Shown piece by piece: positions 1 through 61,364 of a stretch of DNA of 64,000 nucleotides. This DNA is from Geosiphon pyriformis (lineage: Eukaryota > Glomeromycota > Glomeromycetes > Archaeosporales > Geosiphonaceae): the NCBI GenBank assembly GCA_016748015.1, contig JAAOMT010000735.1, forward strand, positions 192,256 through 256,255. Direction: 5' to 3'. The translations under genes and the position numbers were made by a program. A model generated the notes under the pieces. That model was given only the letters and a program-made list of their open reading frames with translations, ran no database searches and was not told the DNA's origin. Position 1 is the first letter of the stretch; each line of letters starts with the position of its first letter.

Positions 1-963
1 AGAAGCATCCTTAACACAAGTAAAGCCATGATCGGAGAGTTCCATATCACCACAAAATAGACATGCCACACCAGGGTAATCCTTATTATACAGCCTTTTT
101 TGAACAGCAACAGGCAACTTGAAATGAACAGCTTTCATGAAGTACATACGAAGAACAGCAGTGGCTCAACACGTACTCCCAGAGAGCATATGAGAGTCAG
201 GGTGCCAAACTAGAATGGTACTATTCCAATCAACAACCAGACCAAACAAACAAGACAAAACCTCTTTGCCAGGACCCATTTCTCATTGAAACTTGCAAAT
301 AGAATGAAAAATGTCACATACAAAATGGCGGGCATTACCAGAAACTGGCCTGTCATCAGCAACCACATATCTACAATTAACCCTGACAGGGAGAAAGATC
401 CTAGAGTGTACAGCTTGTTCAGCAAAAACATCAGCCATAACATTACTAGCAATGCCAGCATGATCTTTGACTTTAATCCAGTGGACAGTCAGATCTTTGG
501 ATTCAATCAAATCAACCACATAGCACCTTTCTATCCAGCAACTATTGTGACAATCCGGCTGCAAGAGACCCAATTCGGCCACACATGCATCAATAGCCGC
601 TTGACTATCTGTGTGCAAAGCCACTGAAACAGAGGCAGGAACGCACTCCAGAGCCAAGGCAACAGTCTGTAATTCAGCCAGGGTCGAAGACAGCACACCA
701 TGTATCTTCACCCTTAAACCTTTGTTCAAGCTAAAAAAATAAGCAGCAGTCCCATATGCCACCTGAAATGTACCCAAGTCTCTAAAAGAACCATCAGTAT
801 AAACATTAATCTTATCAGCCCACAATCCATGAATCTCCTCAAGAATATCAGTAAAAGACATTGAATCCAAAACACTAGCACAAACAGAAGCTAAACTCAC
901 AGGAAGGGGAGCATGCAAACAACTATTCAAATAAGTAGAGGCTTTCAAAAACCATAAAGACAC
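1..963 (-). pseudogene. LINE ORF2 C-terminus: RNase H domain and zinc motif
   Basis: This continues the frame of the thumb segment after a stop near 985. RNase H signature residues are visible in order: INVYTDGSF (first Asp), LAELQTVALALE (Glu), LHTDSQAAID (second Asp) and ASNVMADVFAEQA (fourth acidic site). All four acidic positions look kept, so this part is the best preserved. Beyond it, at about 120-20, comes a segment ending in a C-x2-C-x7-H-x4-C zinc-binding motif typical of this LINE type. At least two more stops separate them (near 281 and 165). The function in the intact element is removal of the RNA strand during reverse transcription. Confidence 0.88.
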
Positions 964-3900
964 AGGGCCTTTAGAACCAAGTCTTTTCCATCAGTAAAAT
1001 GTATGCCAACTAACAACAGAACCTTTTTTGTCCAGAAGTTGGTCACCATATGCCACACCAGCAATTTTCAAAAAGCGAACCACATTGAAATACAAAAGAT
1101 CACCCAATACCAATGACATTGAGAAATGGCCAGGAGAGTGAAAGACACAGAGAAGCCTGTTATCCAAAGACAGTTTGTTGTTAAGAAATATATGAACCAC
1201 ACTTGCTAGAAAATTGTTTGAAGTGTTCACTCTCAGCTTAACAGAATATTGAAGAGAATTCAGTGGAGTCCAGCACAAAACCTGTAAATCCAAAAATTGA
1301 TGTTTGAACAGACAGCCAAAAATTCCAGAAAAATTTGCAAATTGCACAATAGAAGCTATCTTGCATTCAGCCTGCAACTGTTCAAAAGATTTCAGTCTAT
1401 AAAGAGAGGGGTGGTGCAATGCCTCATTGGGAAAATCTCTCAGCAAATTGGCTTTTAACCTAAGACCTTTTCTAATCAGAACGTCCCATTTTAAACAAAC
1501 AGCTTTGGAAACAAAACTAAATTGTGTTTGATAATTGACTATGGGCTGCAAAACAGCTGAAACCAGATAAGAGAATTGTTTATCAGAGACAGTCTTCCAG
1601 AGAATCATATTTGAGAAGAACCTAATATCTGAATTGGTTTTGGCAAGACTCAGCTTAGACAAACTATCGGTGGACAAGAAAATACCCAAATATCGATGAC
1701 TCACACCAGGACTGGCAACAGCAATAGCCTGGCCATTGATAAATTAAACAGGAACCCCCACTTTTTTGTTGATAGGAATGGCAACTGTCTTTTCATTGTT
1801 TATGTTAATGTCATTAATGAAGAAAAACTCATTGGCTATATTAAGAATGTGCTGTGTAAAGGCCTGCCCATTTTCCACCCAAATAGTGTCATCAACAAAG
1901 GCGCCAGCTGCAAAAAAGAAGTTATACCCCCACTAGTCTCAATCCTTCCAGTCTTTGCCACAAAGTTTGAATTGATCCGATAACTACACAAATAATCTTG
2001 TCTCACAATTTCACATAACAAGGGGTCATAAAAAATTCTCCAAAGAAGAGGTGAGAAAACTTTACCCTAATCCAAACCATTAAGAACTTTGTATCCATCA
2101 GATAAACCAAAATCTGTCATGACTCTGTTGAAGCGATTGTTGTGAATGTTGCCAAAAAACTTGATGAACTTGCCACATATTTTGATACGGCGTAAACTAG
2201 CTTCCAAATGAGGCCAACCAACAGAGTCATATGCTTTGCACATGTCTTGAAGAACCAGCCAAAGTTCATGGCCTTTTTCCAAAGCATCCTCCACAATTGA
2301 ACCCACAGCTGAAATTGGTAACTAAGTGGAAGTGTCTTTGAGGACAAAAAAGTTGTTACCACAGAGAACATCAAATTTACTACAAGCAAGAGAGATCTTG
2401 TCTGAAAGAACTTTTGACAAAATTTTTCTGGCTGTTTCAATCAATACAATAGGCCATGTATTTGACAAAATGCCATCCCAATCATAAGGCTTAGGAATCA
2501 TGGACACCCAGGCCTCTTTCCAATGGACCGAAACATCACCAAACCACAAACAAGAGTTTAGCAAAGACAATAAACACTCCAAAACCAAACAGCCAGCATG
2601 TTTCCAAAGTTCATTGGTGATGCCTGACAAACCAGCAGCTTTGCCATCAGGAAGATTGCTTATAATTGAAGACATCTCACACATGGTAATATCACACATG
2701 ACCAGATTAAAGACACCATTATTAACATAGACCAAAGGGGCATATTGTTGTGCCCAGGGACCAGACAGAACAGGAAAAGCATTCTGCTTTCTGGTCCAAT
2801 TAACCATAATGTTATCCATTTTGAGCTTCACTTCATTAGGTTCCAAAATAAGAGAATCACCAACAACCAAATAGTCTAGAACAACTTTGTGAAAGGGCCA
2901 CTTCAAAATGCTCCGAATCATCCTACCTTTGTTCATATCAAACTTTTTCATACACTTATCAATTGTGTCTCTGATAGCAGATCTTTTGGCCACCTCAAAT
3001 TCATAATATTTGGACTTTCTATATTGCTTTCTAACCTTTGAAAGATGACTTATTAAGCCAGCAGAACTCACACCATCCCCAATTATACCATGAACTTTGG
3101 AAGCTTCGGAAGAGTCAGCTTTAAACCAAGTGTCAGCCAGATGATTAAAGTCCAACATATCATCTAGTCTCAGCATCTTTAATAACTTGGCAACCAACAG
3201 CTCCAACCTGGAAAATTTAGAAGAAAGTTTATTCTTAGTACAATCAAATTCACTATACCAATGTCTTGAAAAAAAAATTTCAGCAAAAGCAGTCATGGCT
3301 TCAGCTAGTATCTCCCACATTCCATTCAAGTTGCCACCATCTTCAGCCATCTTGAATCTATTCAGAGAACCCAAAAGTGCACACTCAGAAAGTTCTTTGA
3401 AATGTGCCCACTTTTTCTCATCAACATCCTTAATCTTAAACTTTCAGCGATCCTTATTAGCATGCTTGCAGATACTGTTCAAACAAGCATCCAGAAAACC
3501 ACCCAGTCCAATAGACATTGAGACAGCCAAGTGATCCATGTCCAAAAATTCTGAGACAGAACTAACATCACAATCCACAACAGCCGAAATCAAAGAGTTA
3601 CTAACTAGAATATAGTCCAAAACCTTGCTAATGCCTCTTAAATTGCTTTAAGTAGGAATCCTAGCTAGAGAATGGCCACCAAAAACATTAACCAGACCCA
3701 AACCTAAACATTTTCTAAGACTTGCCCCCTTGACTGAATTGTTTTCATTAAAGTCTCCACCCAAAACAACAAAAGAACTTTTGTTGACAGTATCAGCAAT
3801 GAATAAATTAATAACAGAAGTCTGAGCAAAATGGTCACCACCAGATGCACAGGCATAAAGCCCAATGACAGACACAGAAAGCTTGTTCTTAAACAAAAAA

Positions 3901-4157
3901 CAAATTGAAAGAACTCTGCTCTTCACTTCCTCAACTTTGGAAACATGACGAGCCAGAGAATTGTTCACAAAAATGGCTACACTAGCCCCACAAAACCCAA
4001 CATCCAGACCAGACATAAAAACCCAAACACCTTCAAATTTTTTCATGATCCATGGTTGTGAACTAGAACACAACTTGGTTCCTGTAACAATCGAGATCGA
4101 ACTACCAGATTCCTTATGCCAACAAAAAATGTCCTCCTGTTTTGCAGGATTGTTCAT
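964..4157 (-). pseudogene. LINE ORF2: endonuclease and reverse transcriptase, interrupted
   Basis: The endonuclease part (about 4157-3440) starts MNNPAKQEDIFCWHKES and has the catalytic block VLGGDFNENNS and a distal DMDH motif. The reverse transcriptase follows: fingers with LPDGKAAGLSGITNELW (about 2650), then motif A LVLQDMCKAYDSVGW (about 2240) and motif C FVDDTIW (about 1890; F-x-D-D form). The thumb (1704-991) is in another frame. The endonuclease to motif A segments lie in one frame separated by single stops near 3648, 3450, 2322 and 2067. A one-base loss just before motif C shifts the frame. The catalytic Asp residues are still present, so this was a recognisable EN-RT protein that nicks target DNA and primes reverse transcription there. 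It is not translatable as it stands. Confidence 0.92.
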
Positions 4158-4198
4158 TTCCCTAACATTACACGTGGCAATTTTCCAAATAAAACTGG

Positions 4199-6049
4199 TT
4201 ATTGTGACGAAGAGATAACCGAAGAACCTGAGTCAGCACACAATTGATCCAACTTAGCCAAAATTGAACCAACAGAGATGTCGAGGGCAACCAACTTTAA
4301 TTCCAGACCACCAACTTTGGAAGTTAGGACTTTGGAACTACTCAGACCCAAGAGCAAATCAGCAACATCTGAAGAGAAAGAAGTAGGCTGAACAACAAGA
4401 TTATTAACTGCCATGTCAAAATCCAAGTCGGAGTTTGCAACCACAAGAGGCACAGAGGTTGGGGACTGAGAAACAACCACAGAAGGAACCATTTGAGAGG
4501 AAGGTGCCAAGGGTGTCAAACCAATATTGTCAAGATGAGAAAAAATGTCCAAACTTGATCAGACAAAAGCTCTACAGAGCGTTCTAAAAGCACTAAGTGA
4601 GCACCCAAAGGAGAATTGACCACAGGTAGAGAGGAAGGTGCCCCACCCGAATTCAAAGCACCAGAAGGCAGGGAGCTGGAACCAGAACCAGCATGAAAAC
4701 CATGAAAAACTGAAGCAACTGAGACCACTTAAACCCAAGATTTGCCACCAAAGGCAACAAAACAAGAGATTGGTACATTCTTCTTTGGCCAGCTGGAGAT
4801 AAGTATCTAGGTTGGCAGACTTAATAAAAAACTTTGAAGATTTAAGGACTGATACAACCTCAGCATCAGATTCCAAAACAGAATGACCAAACTTCCCACA
4901 CCGTTCACAGTGAACCAAATCCAGCCTAGCCTATTAGAGTTTCACACCACCAAAAATTGGCTCTATGTGAAAAGCCAACTCCAAAACCTCATCAGAATCA
5001 AAACAAACAACAGCACAACAGATCTTATTACCAGTCTTCAATGACCAATTTATAACACAAGTTTTTCCACCAGCCTTTTCAAGAAGATCCCCAAGATCAT
5101 GAGCAGTAGTTCCCACCAGCAAAGTGAACAAAAGTGCTCTTAACTGATCTTTAGATGCCCAAGTTTTATGATTGCCCACTGCTATAGTTACACAAACCGA
5201 GTCTTTACCAATCAGGAAGGACCACCTAACAGCCAAAGACACAGTCTGTTCCAGTTCGGCAAATTCCACTACAGCCTTCTGCTATAAACCAATCAACTGA
5301 ATTTTAATTGACTTAATTTTTTCAAACTCGGATACTGCAGCAATGATCATTTCTTTTGATGTATCTATAAGAATTTCCTTGATTACTATGGCCCGATCTG
5401 AGTGAATTCCTTGTCTCTTAAGATCACTGTTTACTATGATGTTATTTTCTCTGGCCAATAACACAGCCTTTTTCATGTTTTCTGACAAAGTAAATGTTGA
5501 TCTGATGATCCCTTCAAATTTTGAGGGAGTAGTGGCCCCCCCAAAACCATTGATTATCAAAAATAATTTTCTAATAACCTGAGTCTTGGCCGTCATCAAT
5601 TTCTCCTCCACAGCAGATAGATTGATGTCCAAAGCAAATGATTTCTTCACAGCAACTTCTACTTGAGACTTAACAATTTTGGGGTCCACTTACACTTTTT
5701 CTAAAGAAAAAGACAAACGGAAAGGAAGAGAAACTTCCTTCTCATCATCCATGTTATAATTAATAGAGCCGAGAGAGGAACTGACAGCTGCATCAGTATT
5801 GAAATGCTTCGCATTGGGTGTATTCATTTGGGAATTGGAAGTGGCTCTACCATCAGAGGCTTCTCCATCCATATCTATATTAGTAAATTGTATGTCCACA
5901 CTAACAGATCCACCATCTTTGAGATTCTTATCTATACTTGAATGTTCAACACTATTGAGAGGCTTTTTGACTTTTTGAGTTAAACCACCACCAACTGAAC
6001 CAGCAGATAAGACTCTAACAGACTTTTTCTTAGCACTAGGACCACTCAT
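4199..6049 (-). pseudogene. LINE ORF1 (RNA-binding/nucleocapsid-like), interrupted
   Basis: The likely start is the ATG at 6049 (MSGPSAKKKS...). An upstream in-frame Met at 6211 lies in what looks like 5' UTR. The ORF is read through stops at about 5690, 5279 and 4931, all in one frame, then shifts frame near 4730. Visible parts are a basic N-terminus, a central RRM-like stretch (about 5300-4930), a zinc knuckle C-x2-C-x4-H (CERCGKFGH, about 4910) and a Ser/Val/Leu-rich tail ending near 4199. The fourth ligand of the knuckle, expected to be Cys, reads Ser (LESD). The role in LINEs is to bind the element RNA in a ribonucleoprotein. The stops plus the lost knuckle ligand make a working product unlikely. 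Confidence 0.85.
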
Positions 6050-21706: not shown

Positions 21707-21850
21707 CGAAAATTTCACAATTCTCACATCTAATTGAAAAAATAAGCCAAAAATTTTTAAGTTTGAATTCCTTTTTGTTACAAAAAACTTTATCATTACT
21801 ACTTTCTTTATTTCTCCCAAAGATCGACAACTATTTTTCTCTTTGAATTA

Positions 21851-23059
21851 ATGGCTGAATTAATGCACACATCATCTGAATTCGATTTTCCTTTAAGGAT
21901 ATCAAAACCTCATTTTCCACCAAAATTCACCGTTGAAGAACTTTTATCAAATGCCCTTAAAATTTTTCATCAAGGTGGTAAACCTCCTAAAATTCCGAAT
22001 GCTTTCATGGTCTATCGAATGGTTCTTCGAAAAGAACTTGGAGAAAATTATGAAAATAATTTACCAGACATGCGTGATCTTTCGGCAATAGCGGCAAAGC
22101 TTTGGAAACTAGAGCCGAGTTATGTGAGATCAAAGTATCAACAACTTGTGATTTCTGCAAAAAATCAATTTGAACAAATTGTTAATGCTCCTCGTTCATT
22201 TCAAATTGTCCAAGAAGATCCTTCTTGTGAAAATTTCCCTAACAATTATAATAATTGTTCAGCATTCGGTGGTGGTGGTGGTGGTGGTAATGGGGACAAT
22301 TTAAATGATTACATGGTGAATTGGAAAACTTGTAAGACTCCACTGAAATCAACCATGAATAAAAACCGTTCTTCAACAAAAGGTTTTAACAAGATTGTTA
22401 AAAAAACAATTACAAAAGATTCCAGTACTCAGACCGAGATACAAAGTTTTCAACATGTTGTTCCCGTACAAAATCTAGTCAATGAGTCAACTGATCCAGT
22501 GATATTAAATTCTCAGATCAATTATTCAGGAGATTGGATCAGTAATAATAGTAATAATAATAATAATAATAATGATAATAATAACAATAACAATAACAAT
22601 AACAATAACAATAACAATAACAATAACAATAACAATAACAATAACAATAACCATAACAATAACAACAACAATAATAATAATAATAACATTGAAAATAATA
22701 ATAGTAGTAATAATAATAATAATCATAATCATAACCATAACCATAATCATAATAGTAATAATAACGTTATTAATCAATTTATTTATGCCAATCCATCACC
22801 AAACATTGATGGATCAACGCGACATTCTTTTGATGTCATTCCTCCTTATTTTCTTTACCCGACAAATCTTGATATGACTCCATCAGTTTATCGTGAAAAT
22901 GTGGAAAATCGTATGCTTTACCTGGAACAAAATATGGAAAGAGTTATCGATATTCCAAATAATCCATATCCGAGTGGTAATTTTGAAGAGCGTTTAGTAC
23001 GGTTGGAGCAACTTTTTGAATCATTTTTTCCAAGCCACAGTTCACTATCTCTTTTGTAA
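21851..23059 (+). CDS. MATA-HMG box protein 1, with long Asn tract
   Basis: 402-aa single-exon frame. The HMG box spans residues about 46-112: it opens PPKIPNAFMVYRM, has the helix-2 region DLSAIAAKLWKLEP, and ends in a Lys/Gln-rich helix 3. IPNAF-type motifs mark the MATA-HMG group of sequence-specific minor-groove DNA binders. A Gly run lies near residue 140. Residues about 229-308 are almost wholly Asn with scattered His, encoded by mixed AAT/AAC codons. The last 90 residues are conserved-looking and hydrophobic at intervals. The first ATG of the frame follows a pyrimidine-rich leader, which supports this start. This family is greatly expanded in AM fungi, so mating-type function should not be assumed. 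Confidence 0.9.
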   Translation: MAELMHTSSEFDFPLRISKPHFPPKFTVEELLSNALKIFHQGGKPPKIPNAFMVYRMVLRKELGENYENNLPDMRDLSAIAAKLWKLEPSYVRSKYQQLVISAKNQFEQIVNAPRSFQIVQEDPSCENFPNNYNNCSAFGGGGGGGNGDNLNDYMVNWKTCKTPLKSTMNKNRSSTKGFNKIVKKTITKDSSTQTEIQSFQHVVPVQNLVNESTDPVILNSQINYSGDWISNNSNNNNNNNDNNNNNNNNNNNNNNNNNNNNNNNNNHNNNNNNNNNNNIENNNSSNNNNNHNHNHNHNHNSNNNVINQFIYANPSPNIDGSTRHSFDVIPPYFLYPTNLDMTPSVYRENVENRMLYLEQNMERVIDIPNNPYPSGNFEERLVRLEQLFESFFPSHSSLSLL

Positions 23060-34100: not shown

Positions 34101-35534
34101 ACTTGGCTAACTAAATCAAAAATAATTTCTAATACAACTTTCAACTTTATTATCTGATTCTCGAATAAATTTAACCTTTGAATCGCTGAATTTGTGTAAT
34201 GACAGAGGGCGACAAAATCTATTATGAGAAATATTTTAGATCATATTTTTTTTATTTGTGCATAACTGGTTGTCCAAGGTTAAGTAATGTTTATTCATTG
34301 ATTTTATACAAAAAACACTAATAGACTAATACTTTTGATTGAGTTGGTAATTATTTTATTTGCGACTCCAAATTTTAGATGGAGTATGATAACTTTTATC
34401 TCTGCCCAAAGATCTTCTTGATATACCTTGGAATCGTGTGAAAGTGCTTTCACCAGAAAAAAGAAAGGAACCCTTTCTTCGTTTTTTTTTTTTTATCAAA
34501 TTTTCAGCCTATTTGAGTCATTTCTTACGATATGTTTAATAATTGCGGGTTTACACTCTTCCAAGTCTAACTTTTACAAGATTATAATATATTGTAGGAT
34601 TGCATGCTAAAAAACAAACCATTTACTCTTGTTGATATTAATAGCCTTTCAAAACGTTACTCGTTTATGTCACTTATCAAATTATCAAATTTTAAGGGAA
34701 ATCAAATTCGACTTAACCTTAAACAGGAAAGCCAAATTCAACCTTTGGAGTTAATTTCCCAAAACAAGGATTTTCACGATCAAAAATTCTTGCTTATTAA
34801 AAAAAAGCATCTGAATCCTATGTAAAAAAAGGTTGGGAAAATATATTATAACTAATCACAAATCATGTTTCGATGAGAACTTTTGTATTATTCTTTATCT
34901 CTCGCATAAGAAATTATAATAATGCACGAGAAACAGTTCTCAAAAAATAATATTTATCCCATTTAAAGCCCATTTCCCACTATAATTTTAACCGTTCTTT
35001 TTCAAAGTTTTTATTTTCAAAACCTTGAATAAATTTAAAGTTCAATGGTGAATATGTTGCTCCCGGAACAAGCATATTGATTTTATTAACTATAAAGTGT
35101 TATCTCAATAGTCATCTTTAATTTTCAAAGGCATGGTTCGCAATAAGAAATATCTTTCAGTTACATGTTTCTTTGAGAACAATCTTTTAAATAAAATTCC
35201 TTAAAATGTTGAAAAAGCAGAATTAGATTTATCCTATAAGCTTTGAAGCCTTTTTAAAGATTGAAAGTAAATTTGCACATTATTTTCAAATTTCAAAACA
35301 AAAATTTTATCCACAATAGTTTTAAATAATGCAGTAAATCAAAAATAAAAATCCTAAATGTCAAAATGACAATTTCTCAAGAGGAACGGTTTATTTTATT
35401 TGAATAATTCCATAGCATACATTTTTTTGTACAAACTAGCTATTCTTTGTAAGAATTATAAATGCTGAAATATGTTGGCAATTCAATATTCTTACTATTA
35501 AATTTGGATTAGAATATATTTCAAGCTACCATTA
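30316..35534. other. AT-rich intergenic region with microsatellites and a minor AT-only block
   Basis: ATT arrays lie at about 31087-31134 and 32101-32128, and AAAT/AAT tetramer runs at 32284-32355. From about 32240 to 33520 the sequence is almost pure A/T, like the 6.2-17 kb block. Small open frames at 31722-31973 (minus), 34428-34610 and 34604-34825 (plus) have no motif. The last has a balanced composition, but start, stop and context give no support. Confidence 0.6.
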
Positions 35535-35963
35535 CTATGGATTTTTCTTGCCAACATTATTATTTCCATTTTTGTTTCCATTATTGTTTCCAACATTACC
35601 ATTTCCATTATTGTTTCCATTTCCACCCGTGGCTCTCTTGTCCCATCTTCCGTTTCCACCCCAGCCTCGGTTTCCGTTTCCATTCCAGTTTCCATTCAAG
35701 CTTCCTCGGTTGAGGTTTCCGTTAAAGTTTCCGTTTCCAGAACCTCGGTTGAGGTTTCCGTTAAAGTTTCCGTTTCCAGAACCCCGGTTGAGGTTTCCGT
35801 TAAAGTTTCCGTTTCCACTACCAATGTTTCCGTTTCCGTTTCCGTTTCCATTTCCACCAAAGCCATATCCACCGTCAAAGTCAAATCCACCTGGGAGGGG
35901 CGACGAAGTAACAAATTCAAATAAAACAAAAACGAGAAGGATAACTGAAGTTAAAAAACGCAT
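35535..35963 (-). CDS. Small secreted Asn/Gly-rich repeat protein with Kex2-type site
   Basis: 142 aa from the ATG at 35963; an earlier in-frame Met at 36029 would bury the signal peptide, so the shorter start is preferred. Residues 1-21 (MRFLTSVILLVFVLFEFVTS) form a clear signal peptide. The mature part is Gly/Asn-rich. Residues 48-86 hold three perfect 13-residue repeats (GSGNGNFNGNLNR), and further GN-rich sequence follows. A dibasic KR at 109-110 (RWDKR-ATGG) matches Kex2-type processing and would separate the repeat part from an Asn/Gly tail. There are no Cys, so it would not be disulfide-stabilised. A TATAAAAG box lies about 130 bp upstream. Possible roles (cell-wall protein, secreted effector, processed peptide precursor) are inference. 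Confidence 0.75.
   Translation of the reverse strand: MRFLTSVILLVFVLFEFVTSSPLPGGFDFDGGYGFGGNGNGNGNGNIGSGNGNFNGNLNRGSGNGNFNGNLNRGSGNGNFNGNLNRGSLNGNWNGNGNRGWGGNGRWDKRATGGNGNNNGNGNVGNNNGNKNGNNNVGKKNP
35704..35820. repeat. 39-bp tandem repeat, three copies, coding
   Basis: Units at 35704, 35743 and 35782 differ by only a few bases and encode the 13-residue repeat of the secreted protein on the minus strand. The smaller motif TTTCCGTTTCC is itself repeated within and outside the units. Confidence 0.95.
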
Positions 35964-36092
35964 TTTAAAAATGTTGGCTTTCTCCTTTGAAAAATTTGAA
36001 ATTATGAACAAAAATTGTTTCTTAACCAAATTGATCTTTGTATTAAAATCAAAGGGGAAGATGAGGGTGTTTGGGGGGACTGATTGAAGCTC

Positions 36093-36100
36093 CTTTTATA
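36093..36100 (-). promoter_or_regulatory. TATA box of the secreted repeat gene
   Basis: Minus-strand TATAAAAG, about 130 bp before the preferred ATG at 35963. The spacing suits a transcription start roughly 100 bp before the ATG. Confidence 0.55.
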
Positions 36101-42150: not shown

Positions 42151-43548
42151 TTACATATTGAAATTTTTTCCGCATTTTCCCATAGTATATCCAAAATAGG
42201 GTCCATTATGAGATTTAATATAAGAACTAAAATCATGAGACGGTTTTTCTGCTAGTTTTTTTCGGAATTCATTTTCGTAGGTCAAATTACAATTCTATCA
42301 AAAGAAGAATTTAGCTGAAAATTGATCATAAATTAAATGCCAATTAATTCATTTTAAAAGAAAAATCCAAAATAATCTATCATTAATTCTTACCTGACTT
42401 TCTTGGCCATCACCATCATCACATTGAAAAATTGTAAAAACTTTTTGATTTACATTCCCAAACGTACAAGCACAACTTAGCTCATCGGAGATCCAATATT
42501 CAATATTAGGATGTTTGAATTTGGGTCCAAGAAGAAGTGGAACATAATCATTTTTAAATGTTACTCGGTTCACAAAAACACAACAATCTAGGCTATATGA
42601 AATTGAACTGTCACCAATACGTGGAGCTCCAAACGTAGTAGCTTCAATTTTAATTCCCCTTGTTATTTCAAATAAATTTAAGGCGGCATAGATTGCAAAT
42701 GCTTATTTCAAAAAGATTTGATCGATTAGAATGATCAAGTTAGGTGAAAGTTTAAAGAATTATCGAATTGAATAAAAGATTATTCATTACCTCCTCCTTC
42801 CCCATGACCAGTGAAAAGATACACATGATTTTTATAATATGGATTATCTAAATATATTTTTAATAATTTCAAAACTTTTCCTTTACCACCATCATGGTAC
42901 TTCTTAAAGGCATCTGATGGAACAAAAATGGGGTATATTCCAGAATTAGGGTATTTGAAAGAAGCATTAGATTTATCCCGTCTTATCATTTCATCAAATG
43001 TCAATTTTCTTCCTCTTAGTTGAATAATGATAGCGCGAGAAAGTCCATATCTTGTCTGGATTGGCCTGTAGCTTGGAAGAACCCATGCTGTGGCCAAAAG
43101 TATTCAACTTTCCAGATCAATAATTCAATTTCTATGAAAATTGAAAAATTTATTGCAAAGAACTTAAAATGTCTCTACCATAAATATCATTTTCAAGGAT
43201 GCCGCTATCTTCTAATAAACAATAGGTTTGGTGTGCATAGAAAGCCATTTCAGAGAGAAACTGTAATTTTTGCAAATCTAGTACTTTTGACGGTTTTTGA
43301 ACACCAAAGATTCTTTTTTTTAATTTCATTTTTGACAATTCTTTTTTTTCAAAAGGATTTTTTATTAATACTAATTTTTCATGGAAATATTGTGAATTCA
43401 TTTCATTTGAAAGTTGTAATTGTGAAATATTTTTTTTCTGAATTCTAGAAAATTTTTCTGAATTTGATGATGTGAATCTGAAGCTGAAAGAATTTAAATA
43501 GATTGTGATTATAATAATGAAAAAAACCAAAAACCAAAAATTCAGCAT
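42151..43548 (-). CDS. Class 3 lipase-fold protein lacking the nucleophilic Ser (candidate pseudo-enzyme)
   Basis: Four-exon model on the minus strand: 43548-43179, 43087-42791, 42701-42394 and 42294-42151. All introns are GT-AG, of 91, 89 and 99 nt, and phases match, giving 372 aa. Residues 1-20 are a signal peptide or anchor. Fold landmarks are IIIQLRGRKLTF (about 143-154), the nucleophile elbow, FGAPRIGD (about 246-253), KND with the acidic residue Asp274, HPNIEYWI, and SHNGPYFG with His354. The elbow reads GHGEGG, so residue 219 is Gly instead of Ser. The usual V-H-x-G-F-x3-Y segment reads VPSDAFKKY. Asp and His are kept. Without Ser, ester hydrolysis by the normal mechanism is not expected; ligand binding or regulation is possible. 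The neighbour at 45.1 kb is a divergent intact homologue. Confidence 0.85.
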
Positions 43549-45120: not shown

Positions 45121-46780
45121 ATGTCAAACAAGATTTTATCTCACCCAAAAGCCTTTCAAGCCTACTTAAAAGTTGCCATAATTTTTCTCTTGGCTTTTTT
45201 CATAATATTCAGGGTGGAATTTTCAGTTGAGGCTGTTGTTATACCAAAATCCCAAAACCAGCAACTGTTCGTCGCCAATTTTTCAAAAGACCCTATTTTC
45301 CCAAATACAATTCTCAATATTTTTGATCCAGATTTTACAAACGAATCAATATCATTGCCAATTTTTGAAGAAGATACCTTTTCAAGCACAAACACCAAAC
45401 AAAAGCTAGGTAAGAGTATTCAGAAATCTGAAAAAAATTATGAATTCTTTAAAAATAACTTCTCCTTGGCAATTGTAAATTTAAAAGAAATTAATTTAAC
45501 CTCAATTTTAGGCTCAATAGTGAAAAATGAGTCAATTTTAATAGATAATTTTATTAATAAGGAAAATTTGGCAATGTCGTTAGATGGTGGTTACATTGGA
45601 GAATATAAAGTTATTCAAGGTAAGTTCAATTAATCGCCTTGGTAATAACAGTAGCATTTTTTTTAAAGATCTTGACGTAATTCTTACTAATTTAAACATT
45701 TACATTTAATCATTCAAGTGAATAGAACACCTCGATATAATTTACTTTCAGACATTGCAATATATTCCGAAAATTCCTATTGTCTCGATGATATTGCAAC
45801 CGAATTTTCAAATGGAGTTCATGGTATTTTTGTCAAAGCTTTATTGAAATCGTTAATTTCATCGTGAAAGAATTAATTCTTCATCACCTGTCATTAACAG
45901 GCGAAATTAAAGATGAAAGGAACCTTAATGGGCTATTATTCACTGTAACATACCTAAGTGGTGAAGAATCTCGATTAAATGAATTTCTTAATAAACCAGA
46001 GTTGATTCCTTACGTAGATCTTCTAGCAGCCGAAGTTCCATTCGCTCAAGTTCATGCCGGTTTCTTTCGCGAATATCAAAATGCTTCGCTGTATATTCAT
46101 CGGAGGATTGCGCGATTTATTTTTCTTGTAGACGACAGAGACAAAAAGCCAATTTTTTTCACAGGGCATAGTTTAGGTGGTGGTACGTTAACATTTGACG
46201 GTTATCTTTTATCGATTTCATTGAATATTTACAACTGAATTCATTTCTCAAATTTCCTCTCTCTTATCAATAAACTATATATATTTTTAGTATATGCAAC
46301 GTTTGCCGCACTCGTGTTCAAAAAAGCATTTCCAAAACGACGAATTTATGTGATCACATATGGTCAACCACGTATTGGTAATCAACATTTTGCCAACTAC
46401 GTCGATAATACTCTAATAAACCCCTCAGGAGAATCAACAGTTTATCGCGTGATTTTTTCGAATGACAACATACCACATTTACCAATTTCTCAAAAAACGT
46501 ATACACATCCAGGGATAGAATATTGGATCAAATCTCGGGATCAAACTACATTTGAATGTCCTGGGTTAAAGGGGACTGAAAATCAAGTGGGCTTTTGATT
46601 AAAGAGATTTTGAAAATTTAAGAATTAAAAGTAGAAATCTAATCTTTTATTTCCTTTTTTTTTAATTAGAAATGTTCCAATAGTGTAAAAGACTTAACAA
46701 GGAATGCACATAACGGACCTTATTTTGGGATCATAATGGGGTCTTGTATTGCCCTTGATAATATTGGAAGTTTTGTTTGA
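45121..46780 (+). CDS. Class 3 (Rhizomucor-type) lipase, complete catalytic triad
   Basis: Five-exon model: 45121-45619, 45752-45823, 45901-46182, 46291-46586 and 46670-46780. The first three introns (132, 77 and 108 nt) have clear GT-AG ends with matching phases; the fourth (83 nt) uses GTGGGC...TTAG and is less certain. The product is 419 aa. Residues 17-38 are a hydrophobic signal or anchor, followed by a variable region to about 165. Class 3 landmarks are IAIYSENSYC, VHAGFFREY (about 241-249; oxyanion region), GHSLGG with Ser281, YGQPRIGN, SNDNIPHLP with Asp343, HPGIEYWI and NAHNGPYFG with His397. The last exon supplies His and the usual following Cys, which supports the intron call. The family hydrolyses acylglycerol esters and the protein is likely secreted or membrane-anchored. 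It diverges from the dead paralogue at 42-43.5 kb. Confidence 0.88.
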
Positions 46781-57870: not shown

Positions 57871-58413
57871 TTACAGTTTTATACTGAGAAGTTGTTCTTG
57901 AGCTAATTCGAAGCCTTGCTCAGCCGATTTTGTCAGCCAGTAAAGCCCTTTTTCAATATCTTTTACCTCCCGATAAAAATATCTAGCTATCTCATATTGA
58001 GCCGGAGCAAAACCCGCTTCGGCAGAATGCTGACACCAAGAAATTTGTTTGAGTGGATCCTCACGTTCCAACTCAAATATGAACATTAAATATTGTGCGA
58101 TCGGATTTCCACCCCAAGCCGTTGCTCGAATTCGATCCGTCGCTGCGCACACATCTCGAACCCTACCTATTCCCAAGAAATAAAAGACCCCGGACAAAAT
58201 TGTCACTCGCTCTTCTTTATAATAGAAATTCCTGGACTCTGAGATATCTCCAAGTACACGACTAGGATTGATATAATTTTCGAGGAGATAAGATTCAAAA
58301 TCTAGTTTAGTGTCTTGGAAATTTTTCCGATCGTTTAGAGATATGACGAGGATGCGCCAAAGATCTTGTTTAGGGCTTCTTTTGTTGGTAATAATACCGT
58401 ATTCTGAATTCAT
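57871..58413 (-). CDS. Sel1-like repeat protein, 180 aa
   Basis: Single-exon frame. Residues about 1-65 are unique sequence (MNSEYGIITNKRSPKQDLWR...). From about 70 there are three Sel1-like helical repeats: about 70-106 (GVFYFLGIGRVRD...ATAWGGNPIAQ), 107-140 (QHSAEAGFAPAQYEIARYF) and 141-175 (GLYWLTKSAEQGFELAQEQL). The A-x2-G-x3-A-Q pattern is clear in the last two, and the first is degenerate. Such alpha-solenoids mediate protein-protein contacts in signalling, and the family is large in AM fungi, where it is often fused to kinases. Here there is no kinase domain and no signal peptide. The first ATG of the frame is used. It ends a few residues after the last repeat. Confidence 0.87.
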   Translation of the reverse strand: MNSEYGIITNKRSPKQDLWRILVISLNDRKNFQDTKLDFESYLLENYINPSRVLGDISESRNFYYKEERVTILSGVFYFLGIGRVRDVCAATDRIRATAWGGNPIAQYLMFIFELEREDPLKQISWCQHSAEAGFAPAQYEIARYFYREVKDIEKGLYWLTKSAEQGFELAQEQLLSIKL

Positions 58414-60021
58414 ATTTTTCTAACGTTTTGGAGCGTTTTCATAGATTGTGAATGATGATAATTCTTAGTTTTTGAAGTTTCAAGATTAAAATTTTATTTT
58501 ATCGCTAATTTTTTATATTAGATTTTTTGGTGACTTTTATATGATTCTTTTCATGGATCAATCAAAGATGTATTATTACTAAAACACATTTATCATTTCA
58601 AAAATCAGTTGAGTCAAAATTCATAATGATAGTGTGCATTATATTACTAATATTTCTAATCAAATAAGAATTTTTGAAATGAATAATAATAATAATAATA
58701 ATTGATTTAACTAAAATTTTTAACCAATTGTTAAATTGAACTGCTTGAAGCCAGAAATTATTAAAAAAAAAATGAGAATAGATTATGTATTGCTTCATGA
58801 ATATTATCTGAATGACCAAAATATAAATTTTAAGGAAATTATGAATGCTATCAATATCATTTTAAATATTACTTTTTAATTAAGTCAAATTTCAAGTTGT
58901 ATTCTCCAAAAAAAAAAAAAAGGCCTCAATTAAACAACTTTGTTTAACTATTTTTTGTGATAAATAATGTTTATAATACATTTTTCTCATATCAGCAATA
59001 CAGATCTTACTCGAAATATGTATCGATTGTTTCAATCACATGACCTCGTCATTATTTTAAAAAATTTATAATTAAAAGCATTGTAAAAATTAAAATTTAA
59101 AGATTTTTAATGAGAGTAAATATTTATTCTTTTAGAACCTGAAGCTAGAAATAAATTTTACTTCTCATCTTTCTTCAAAGAAAAATAAGATAAAACTGAA
59201 TTCTTTTAATTTGAAAATCCGGTGCTGTTCAATACAAGCATTTTCTTTCAATAATGGAAATTAAATTTGGAATACACGATCTTTTGTATAAAAAAAAACA
59301 AAATCCACATTTGATGTAATTAACTCGAAAATCTATTTCCAAAAACTTTTTTTTAACTTGATTTCTCGATAGTTCAAAATGCTTCCTCATAAATTCGTAA
59401 AAAAAAATCATTCACTCCATTTACGTCGAAAATAAAAATCTCAATTTCTTAAAATTATAAGAAAATACTAAAATCTGTCAGATCAAATGATATGACCAAC
59501 TGAACCAGAATTTAAAGATTTGCTTAAAAAGACTAAAAATAGATTTTTGAAATAGCACAAATCTTGCATAACATCAAACGTTTGTTGTGCATATCCCTAT
59601 TTTCATCTTTACAATATCCCATCCCATTTTTTCCAAGAGTTTAATAATCGCAAAAATGATTCTGAAAAATTAAATCACTAAAGAAAATCCTTGGGAAAGA
59701 GGTATGTACTCAAAGGTTTATAATCTCTCTTTATGAAAATATTCAAGAAGTTAATAACCTCTGCATGAATGTTTATCTATATTTTCTTACAAAATGGTTA
59801 GAACAATAAGACTATGCCTAAATTTGGAATTTGTACACCTTTTTCACCCACAGGAAGTCCTTGAAACATTTTTAAGCCCAAAATTGACTATTCTTTAATT
59901 CAAAAGTCGTGAAATTGAAATCTGCGAACAATCTCTGGTAGCACTAAACAGTACAACGGAAATCCAGTGCCACAGAGATAATCGACAATTTTAATAGGAT
60001 GGCTAAATTTTGCCGGAATTC
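58414..60021. other. Intergenic between Sel1 gene and MATA-HMG gene 2
   Basis: Divergent gene pair spacing of about 1.7 kb. Mostly AT-rich spacer, with an AAT run at about 58681-58701. Open frames at 58598-58819 and 59229-59411 (minus) have no motif. Confidence 0.5.
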
Positions 60022-60030: not shown

Positions 60031-60122
60031 CACACTTTGAACGGGAATTTTCTTCCCTTTTACTCTCTATCCACTTTTTTCTCCTTCTACCTGTTCCAAT
60101 AAAATAATTTAACTAACCAAAA

Positions 60123-61364
60123 ATGCTGCGTCTTAAACTTGGCCAGAAACAATCCTCCAAACCGATTCTATGGGTTAAACCTAGCCCATCGGTCGTAACG
60201 TTTTCTTCCTCCCATAAACATTCCCCAGTAATTAATGTCTTTGAAACCTTGACTTTGACTTTGACTTTGGCTGAAAAAAGAATTATCTTAAATCCTCCTT
60301 ATAAACTTACTTTACCCCTTCAAGACCTATTATCAGTAGCAAAACAAAAACTCCATAAAAACTCCCCAAAAACAATTCCAAGGCCTCCAAACGGCTGGAT
60401 ATTGTTTCGTAAAGACTTTCAGGCCAAAAATTCTCTTGAATTTCCTCGAAAATCTTTAAAAATACAAGATATTTCCAAATTTGCAAGTAAAGCTTGGCAA
60501 GACCAATCAGTTGAAGTAAAACAGTTCTTTGGTATTTTGCAAAAGATGGCTGTAGAACAACATCATCTTATGCATCCGGAATATAAATTTAACCCTAAAA
60601 AGAAGGTTTCTTATCGCAAGGGATGGGTATTTAAAGATTCTACTAAAGAAACCTATTCCAAGAATGATAAGCGTCATTCAAAATCTTTCTCTTTGTCTTT
60701 GGATGAATCCTTGGATAAAGATTCATGTGACCAAGGAGAAGTGAATGATGAAGCTAAAGATTTTAACTTGTCGGTTTTTAATCCATCTCCAGAAAAATCT
60801 TTCATGAATGTCTTTGAACATTCGACTTCTTCCCAGATTTCGGCAAAAATTGATTCAACTTCTAAACACCTTCTAGACCAAACAGAATATATTGCATCAT
60901 TTGAAGATTTTTTCAGTGTTTCGCCTTTTTCTCAATCTAATATTTCGGAGACTGATAAAGTTTTCGTCGAAAATTTAATTGAGTCACAGGAACCCTCCTG
61001 GTTTCCAAATCTTAATGATCATTTCCTGCTTTCAAAAAATCAATCTGTGAGCCAAGAGTCCTTGAATTTAAAATTCAATTTTAAGGATCTCCAAAATGGT
61101 GAAATCACCTTACCATTCAATTTTGATGCAAATTCCCAATACCTCAATTCAAACACCAATATTCAATATAGTCCTTCAAATCAGTCTATTCTCTCAAATG
61201 ATGTTTCTTTTGATTTTTCCAAAAATGTTTTTTTAGAGTTTGAAAACCCATTTACTTCTAATTTTGAAATTGAAGAATCTTTATTTAACATGCCTGACTT
61301 TTTACTTTTAGATTTTGACCCAATTTCTGAATATGCAGAATTTTCTAATGAACTACTTATTTAA
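60123..61364 (+). CDS. MATA-HMG box protein 2, 413 aa
   Basis: Single-exon frame. The HMG box spans about residues 86-162: PRPPNGWILFRKDFQAKN at the start, then a helix-2 region with ISKFASKAWQDQSVEVK, and the end HPEYKFNPKKK, a P-x-Y-K-F-x-P-K-K signature of the MATA-HMG type. It should bind the DNA minor groove in the nucleus as a transcription factor. Upstream of the box is a hydrophobic/basic region with a Leu-Thr repeat (TLTLTLTL, 43-49). Downstream are about 250 Ser/Asn/Phe-rich disordered residues. The acidic, aromatic C-terminus (EESLFNMPDFLLLDFDPISEYAEF) resembles an activation domain. It shares only the box with HMG gene 1, and there is no poly-Asn tract here. The start follows a TATA box and a pyrimidine leader. 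Confidence 0.9.
   Translation: MLRLKLGQKQSSKPILWVKPSPSVVTFSSSHKHSPVINVFETLTLTLTLAEKRIILNPPYKLTLPLQDLLSVAKQKLHKNSPKTIPRPPNGWILFRKDFQAKNSLEFPRKSLKIQDISKFASKAWQDQSVEVKQFFGILQKMAVEQHHLMHPEYKFNPKKKVSYRKGWVFKDSTKETYSKNDKRHSKSFSLSLDESLDKDSCDQGEVNDEAKDFNLSVFNPSPEKSFMNVFEHSTSSQISAKIDSTSKHLLDQTEYIASFEDFFSVSPFSQSNISETDKVFVENLIESQEPSWFPNLNDHFLLSKNQSVSQESLNLKFNFKDLQNGEITLPFNFDANSQYLNSNTNIQYSPSNQSILSNDVSFDFSKNVFLEFENPFTSNFEIEESLFNMPDFLLLDFDPISEYAEFSNELLI

Follow-up and report, generated by a model that had tools for sequence, protein, structure and literature searches.

The class 3 lipase fold is known to work without lipase activity in plants, where EDS1 and PAD4 use it for signalling without hydrolysis and carry a further C-terminal EP domain. 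In the α/β-hydrolase fold at large, some lyases, decarboxylases and cofactor-free oxygenases work without a covalent nucleophile. According to PMC7240578, incomplete triads together with proposed lipid-binding roles are also found in non-catalytic neutral lipases, the yolk proteins of insects among them. The same paper describes a wasp in which 11 of 58 lipases have no triad, those of the venom being changed mostly at the His and in one case at the Ser. The gene described below belongs to a fungal family in which the nucleophile is mostly replaced by glycine.

The target gene and its surroundings

The window considered here is a stretch of 64,000 nucleotides from Geosiphon pyriformis (contig JAAOMT010000735.1). 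It contains two genes of the Lipase_3 family in divergent arrangement, with 1.6 kb between them, the first of which is the target of this analysis. Their features are as follows:

43548-42151, minus strand: target gene, whole; four exons, 372 codons plus stop, open frame
43179..43548, minus strand: target exon 1; start codon, hydrophobic N-terminus and N-terminal extension, to ...DIY
42791..43087, minus strand: target exon 2; altered oxyanion/lid segment (QLRGRKLTFDEM), VPSDAF and elbow GHGEGG
42792..42809, minus strand: nucleophile elbow GHGEGG, from the gene model and the paralogue elbows
42394..42701, minus strand: target exon 3; TFGAPRIG core, catalytic-type Asp274 and His286, EYWI and the cysteine pair
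42547..42549, minus strand: codon of the retained catalytic-type Asp274, from the exon model and alignment
42511..42513, minus strand: codon of the retained catalytic-type His286, from the exon model and alignment
42151..42294, minus strand: target exon 4; C-terminal GPYFGYTMGKC, then stop
45121..46780, plus strand: neighboring Lipase_3 gene (locus L058); open, 419 aa, with VHAGF and GHSLGG
45121-45619, 45752-45823, 45901-46182, 46291-46586 and 46670-46780, plus strand: the five exons of the neighbor

Lipase_3 (PF01764) is the sole Pfam family that matches the target above the cut-off, at 2.7e-10 and with 40.7 bits where 22 are required. The three introns of 91, 89 and 99 bases are all of the GT-AG type, and the position of the first is the same in the models of the paralogues. 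An earlier reading made from this DNA only (hereafter the sequence-only reading) had proposed a gene with exactly these bounds, with Gly in place of the catalytic Ser and with intact splice sites and frame, and the spliced model bears it out in each of these respects. At the nucleophile position the target has the codon GGG (42801-42803), which is two changes away from any Ser codon, be it AGC, AGT or one of the TCN series; hence a single base error cannot explain the Gly, and a single sequencing error is out as its source. Moreover, the elbow lies 5' of the exon 2 donor, so that the use of another acceptor or of a later donor would leave it unchanged. Of the things that the sequence-only reading had named as speaking against it at this residue, a single sequencing error cannot restore Ser, nor can a splice form with another acceptor or a later donor.

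The remainder of the active site is altered in part. At the place of the K[VI]HxGF motif of the canonical paralogues L004, L005, L007 and L008, the target has VPSDAF, so the loss of VHxGF, likewise claimed earlier, is real. At the oxyanion site these four paralogues have FRGT and the target RGRK, the Thr/Ser being replaced by Arg. Asp274 and His286 align with the Asp and His of the solved class 3 lipases, in agreement with the claim that both positions are kept. On the established mechanism of the family, the lack of both the nucleophile and the oxyanion residue excludes serine hydrolysis; with the His of VHxGF gone as well, the target is, to judge by its residues, unable to use the serine mechanism. 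Where the sequence-only reading had a signal peptide, the N-terminus is hydrophobic (hydropathy maximum 2.52 over 17 residues) and may be either a cleaved signal or a signal anchor. The neighbor at 45.1 kb is indeed the intact, divergent paralogue that it was taken to be, with an open frame and a GHSLGG elbow, and in a quick tree it forms a long branch of its own and does not lie beside the target.

Several further open frames were recognized by eye elsewhere in the window. Two on the plus strand, at 21767-23059 and 60117-61364, are MATA-type HMG-box-like, and those at 283-4232 on the minus strand resemble a retroelement of the LINE type, in which some stretches look like RNase H and others like an endonuclease. 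Overlapping frames occur on opposite strands over a repeated stretch at 35440-36095, one of them specifying a glycine/asparagine-rich protein with a signal-like start. A frame with Sel1-like repeats occupies 57871-58419 on the minus strand.

Glycine as the majority state of a large family

Searches of the genome (124.7 Mb in 406 contigs) recovered at least 163 Lipase_3 matches by exon, with 150 of 748 candidates scored. Simple patterns are noisy: the plain GHGxG pattern finds 364 sites as against 40 in a reversed control, and the plain elbow pattern with an AGY Ser codon 55 as against 15. To remove this noise, the elbow pattern was extended by the intron 2 donor common to the target and its neighbor. 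With any residue allowed at the nucleophile position, this pattern has 297 sites in the whole genome and none in the reversed control, which excludes chance as their source; the separate Gly, AGY and TCN versions are each likewise empty in the control. The target itself is not among these sites, its donor being without the G that the pattern demands, and 297 is therefore a lower bound. Gly occupies 201 of the sites, Ser 39 (34 AGY and five TCN) and other residues 57 (by subtraction), amounting to about five Gly sites for each Ser site. Gly is thus the usual state at the nucleophile position in the family of this genome, and it is this scale that the sequence-only reading had missed, the majority state having the appearance of one odd gene. 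A one-off mutation in the target is out by the same counts.

Among the first 100 sites listed, the residue is Gly in 78, Ser in 11, Ala in four and Tyr in two, with Phe, Asp, Cys, Asn and Glu at one each. The 78 Gly elbows use all four codons (GGA 33, GGT 32, GGC 10, GGG 3), which indicates that the residue has been held while the codon drifted. Local arrays are evident among the first 100 Gly sites listed, with nine in 54 kb on contig C252 and eight in 66 kb on C100. One member with a GHGMGG elbow (L104, G000:C370:2237550-2238850) is peculiar in having intron 2 open in frame, giving a contiguous 269 aa over both exons.

The elbows of the 14 paralogous loci that score best in a protein search (L069-L082) read GHGEGG, GHGDGG or GHGSGG without exception. 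Their splice-aware models are stop-free over a span that begins no later than target residue 87 and reaches at least residue 363, an openness that is partly by construction, as the aligner cannot cross a stop or frame shift; 13 of them have the same three introns as the target, and L079 needed a fourth. An ATG lies at or before the aligned start in seven. No start codon was found at or before that point in the other seven, with L071 showing a Met slightly inside; three models are open to the end of the fetched stretch, and L074 has an early stop in the C-terminal motif. Accordingly, not all of the near copies are shown to be whole. In an alignment of the target with 12 of these loci (all but L074 and L075), the residues G217, H218, G219, G221, G222, D274 and H286 do not vary, and neither do five cysteines and the G, Y, F, G and M of the C-terminal GPYFGYTMGKC motif, which is common to all 13 proteins with small variation. 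Each of the 13 matches Lipase_3 at E 0.01 or better; the other Pfam matches, Mbeg1-like and DUF4313, are weak and limited to one member each. A hydrophobic N-terminus is present in seven of the eight Met-started proteins of the alignment, the target included, the exception being L080.

In a careful tree (85 rows, 191 columns), from which the nucleophile column was excluded and three short rows dropped, the target falls within a set of 12 rows, all Gly (support 99/97). The wider set around it has 19 rows, 18 with Gly and one with Asp (support 99/95). The median length of the end branches in this tree is 0.45 changes per column.

Residues retained and lost

We compared active-site residues across 88 members, a sample that is not random: it draws on the best eight family matches, the 14 paralogous loci, two patterns (their first 30 sites each) and 20 sites picked so as to include odd residues, and it excludes three duplicates and three anchors (Ser, Ala, Cys) for which no exon 3 was found. 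The 62 sampled members without the Ser keep the His in 59 of 60 cases and the Asp in 58 of 61, and these two columns rank 9 and 15 in conservation among 186 columns of the Ser-less rows, in which the elbow columns are conserved by construction. The rows with Ser have the His in 25 of 26 and the Asp in all 26. The departures comprise L015, with Gln for His, and L093, L029 and L032, with Asn for Asp, of which L029 and L032 are broken copies. The Asp-His pair also accompanies Ala, Tyr, Phe, Cys, Asn or Asp at the elbow. In the quick tree, the loci L084, L085, L091, L092 and L093, with Phe, Tyr, Asn, Tyr and Glu, respectively, at the nucleophile position, group together at 88; within this group the His is kept in five of five and the Asp in four of five.

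The remaining features of the active site are distributed differently. The His of VHxGF is found in two of 51 Gly rows versus 12 of 26 Ser rows, and the oxyanion Thr of FRGT is confined to five Ser rows; two Gly rows (L100 and L102) have a Ser at the oxyanion site. The two cysteines of the CxC pair are present in 49 and 50 of 50 Gly rows; for the 26 Ser rows the counts are 13 and 14. At the lid place of a first alignment with 42 Gly rows, Leu is present in 28 and Thr in 27, and the residue four places after the lid-place one is Trp (19) or Met (15). In the target clade of 12, both the Arg at the oxyanion site and the Glu after the elbow are seen in 11. More generally, Arg or Lys stands at the old oxyanion site in 13 of the 16 rows with an acidic residue after the elbow, versus seven of the 53 other rows, a pairing that we treat as a lead only, most of the rows being from one clade. 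As the Arg, Thr, Glu, Trp and Cys columns, which are non-catalytic, are as conserved as those of the Asp and His, the fold alone may explain the retention of the Asp-His pair.

Selection on the glycine-bearing clades

A codon model fitted to exons 2 and 3 (174 codons) gives an omega of 0.22 for the 12-gene target clade; on the grid, lnL is -4438.0 at an omega of 0.2 and -4583.0 at 1. Forcing omega to 1 on the target branch alone is rejected at a cost of 16.4 log units (lnL -4433.0 versus -4449.4), whereas the free estimate for that branch, 0.036, is not to be trusted as a value, since synonymous change is saturated. A second clade of 10 genes (seven Gly, one Ala and two Ser) has an omega of about 0.4, and eight canonical Ser-type lipases one of about 0.1, which is the lower edge of the grid. 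Constraint is thus clear and is weaker than in the canonical lipases. An omega above 1 was seen in none of the three clades fitted. The 12 closest pairs, with dS under 0.3, range from 0.26 to 0.93, and the pairs above 1 (1.09 and 1.11) are both distant and both involve the broken copy L029. Within the sample of 88, the frame is open over exons 2 and 3 in 48 of 51 Gly members, 23 of 26 Ser members and nine of 11 others; one of the exceptions, L061p, is non-open because its stretch begins there. The sequence-only reading had argued for selection in a non-catalytic role instead of decay, and had named a dN/dS near 1 as the result that would overturn this; the omega of the clade and the rejection of a value of 1 on the target branch both lend it support. 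Together with the open frames, they speak against a pseudogene.

History of the glycine state

To the question raised earlier of whether the GHG forms make up a clade, the trees return a divided answer. There are well-supported Gly clades in this genome, but a tree that unites every Gly row in one clade is rejected (AU p = 2e-8), with at least seven forced changes of the Gly label and recovery in 0% of 200 bootstrap trees. Parsimony, rooted on six canonical Ser lipases as the outgroup, yields one early Ser-to-Gly change over 72 of the 85 rows followed by several returns to Ser, those of L040, L047 and L042 being certain in this reconstruction. If regain of Ser is forbidden, the same tree calls for 22 separate losses. 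Either history is unusual. The GHSLGG elbow of L040 (G000:C96:232664, plus strand) is nested among the GHGLGG copies of an array, one A/G change away from them and at a dS of 0.19 from L037, and may mark a recent regain of the nucleophile by a gene that lacks the other catalytic features.

Proposed function and alternative explanations

The selection acting on the target, its kept core and its hydrophobic N-terminus point to a working protein that would lie outside the cytosol or be anchored in a membrane. The best explanation, to which we give about an even chance, is that the target is a secreted or membrane-tethered protein of the class 3 lipase fold that binds fatty acid or another lipid without hydrolyzing it, acting as a carrier, buffer or sensor. 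It would most likely retain the lipid pocket, a lid-like segment and the Asp-His pair. It belongs to a very large pseudolipase family of this genome, whose members are probably secreted or tethered to a membrane; the family grew partly through local duplication and is maintained by purifying selection. Among solved chains, the profile of the target clade scores Thermomyces lipase best; the top row is 1gt6, whose elbow contains Ala and whose score is tied with those of Ser-bearing rows such as 5ap9 and 1dt3. 1gt6 is an inactive variant with oleic acid in its pocket, an example of this fold binding a fatty acid in the absence of the Ser. The type I FAS domain PF08354 has no match in the genome in a search whose sole positive control was bacterial, with none from a fungus; such an absence would be in keeping with an arbuscular mycorrhizal fungus. 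On the other side, the Asp and His may be kept just for folding, the lost oxyanion residue and the Arg and Glu there could close the pocket, and the size and divergence of the family suit a role in recognition as well.

This last role, in which duplicated, divergent proteins built on a lipase scaffold and either secreted or exposed at the surface would act in interaction with the host or microbes or in recognition of self and non-self, with ligand binding only secondary, strikes us as unlikely. The abundance of the family (at least 297 sites, many in arrays such as those on C252 and C100), the median end branch, the omega of about 0.4 in one mostly Gly clade and the range of values among the closest pairs are what it would lead one to expect. 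However, the core, the Asp and the His are strongly kept, no fitted clade exceeds an omega of 1, and the pairs that do are distant ones with a broken member. The retention of the Asp and His in Ser-less members despite the other catalytic losses, including those with Ala, Tyr, Phe, Cys, Asn or Asp at the elbow, is also compatible with a different chemistry, the pair serving as a general base on water or substrate with no covalent nucleophile. We think this quite unlikely: structural constraint suffices to account for the pair, given the equally conserved Arg, Thr, Glu, Trp and Cys columns, and the one row with a Glu elbow has Asn for the Asp. A related proposal builds on the Ser copies, such as L040, that are nested among Gly copies, whereby one A/G change at a single codon might be enough to move a member of the family from binding to hydrolysis or back. 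That the Asp-His pair of a fungus with no type I FAS match carries out Ser-less chemistry or can switch back in this manner is, in our estimation, likewise quite unlikely.

The coexistence of 39 Ser sites with 201 Gly sites, and the divergent placement of the target 1.6 kb from its GHSLGG neighbor, could instead suggest a regulatory partner that pairs with, or titrates, active paralogous lipases. Such an arrangement is hardly probable, as the Gly sites exceed the Ser sites five to one, and fungal class 3 lipases are not known to be obligate oligomers. The least probable explanation is that the target is a pseudogene, a drifting copy or an artefact of assembly or sequencing. The constraint is indeed looser than in the canonical lipases, and broken members do exist (three of 51 Gly members in the sample), but the four exons are open, an omega of 1 is rejected on the target branch, all 14 of the best-scoring paralogous loci have GHG, and two changes separate the Gly codon from Ser.

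If annotated by their fold, the genes of this family would be called lipases, and comparative studies of lipid use in such fungi would then count about two hundred proteins here that are unable to be serine lipases. If the family binds host-derived lipid, its members would be candidates for a missing step of lipid uptake and handling in fungi without their own FAS. The series of residues found at one codon (Gly, Ser, Ala, Tyr, Asn and others) further provides a natural test of what keeps the Asp-His pair in the absence of a nucleophile.

Relationship to known systems

Within the scope of the literature consulted (titles and the starts of abstracts, with subscription papers mostly outside it), we found no description of an expansion of Ser-less Lipase_3 proteins in Glomeromycotina. 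The insect yolk proteins and other non-catalytic neutral lipases belong to another lipase family and another kingdom than the target. EDS1 and PAD4 share the class 3 fold and give weaker matches to the profile of the target clade (5e-8 to 1.5e-5), and the EP-domain family has no match in Pfam scans of the 13 aligned proteins, the target among them. The closest relatives are the fungal class 3 lipases (PF01764), including the Thermomyces and Rhizomucor lipases and feruloyl esterase A, with which the target shares, on the evidence of sequence, the fold family, along with the Asp and His positions, the FGxPR core and the EYWI after the His. It differs from them in having no nucleophilic Ser, in the replacement of the oxyanion Thr/Ser by Arg and in the lack of VHxGF, and it is further distinguished by an extra CxC pair, a long N-terminal extension and the GPYFGYxM C-terminus.
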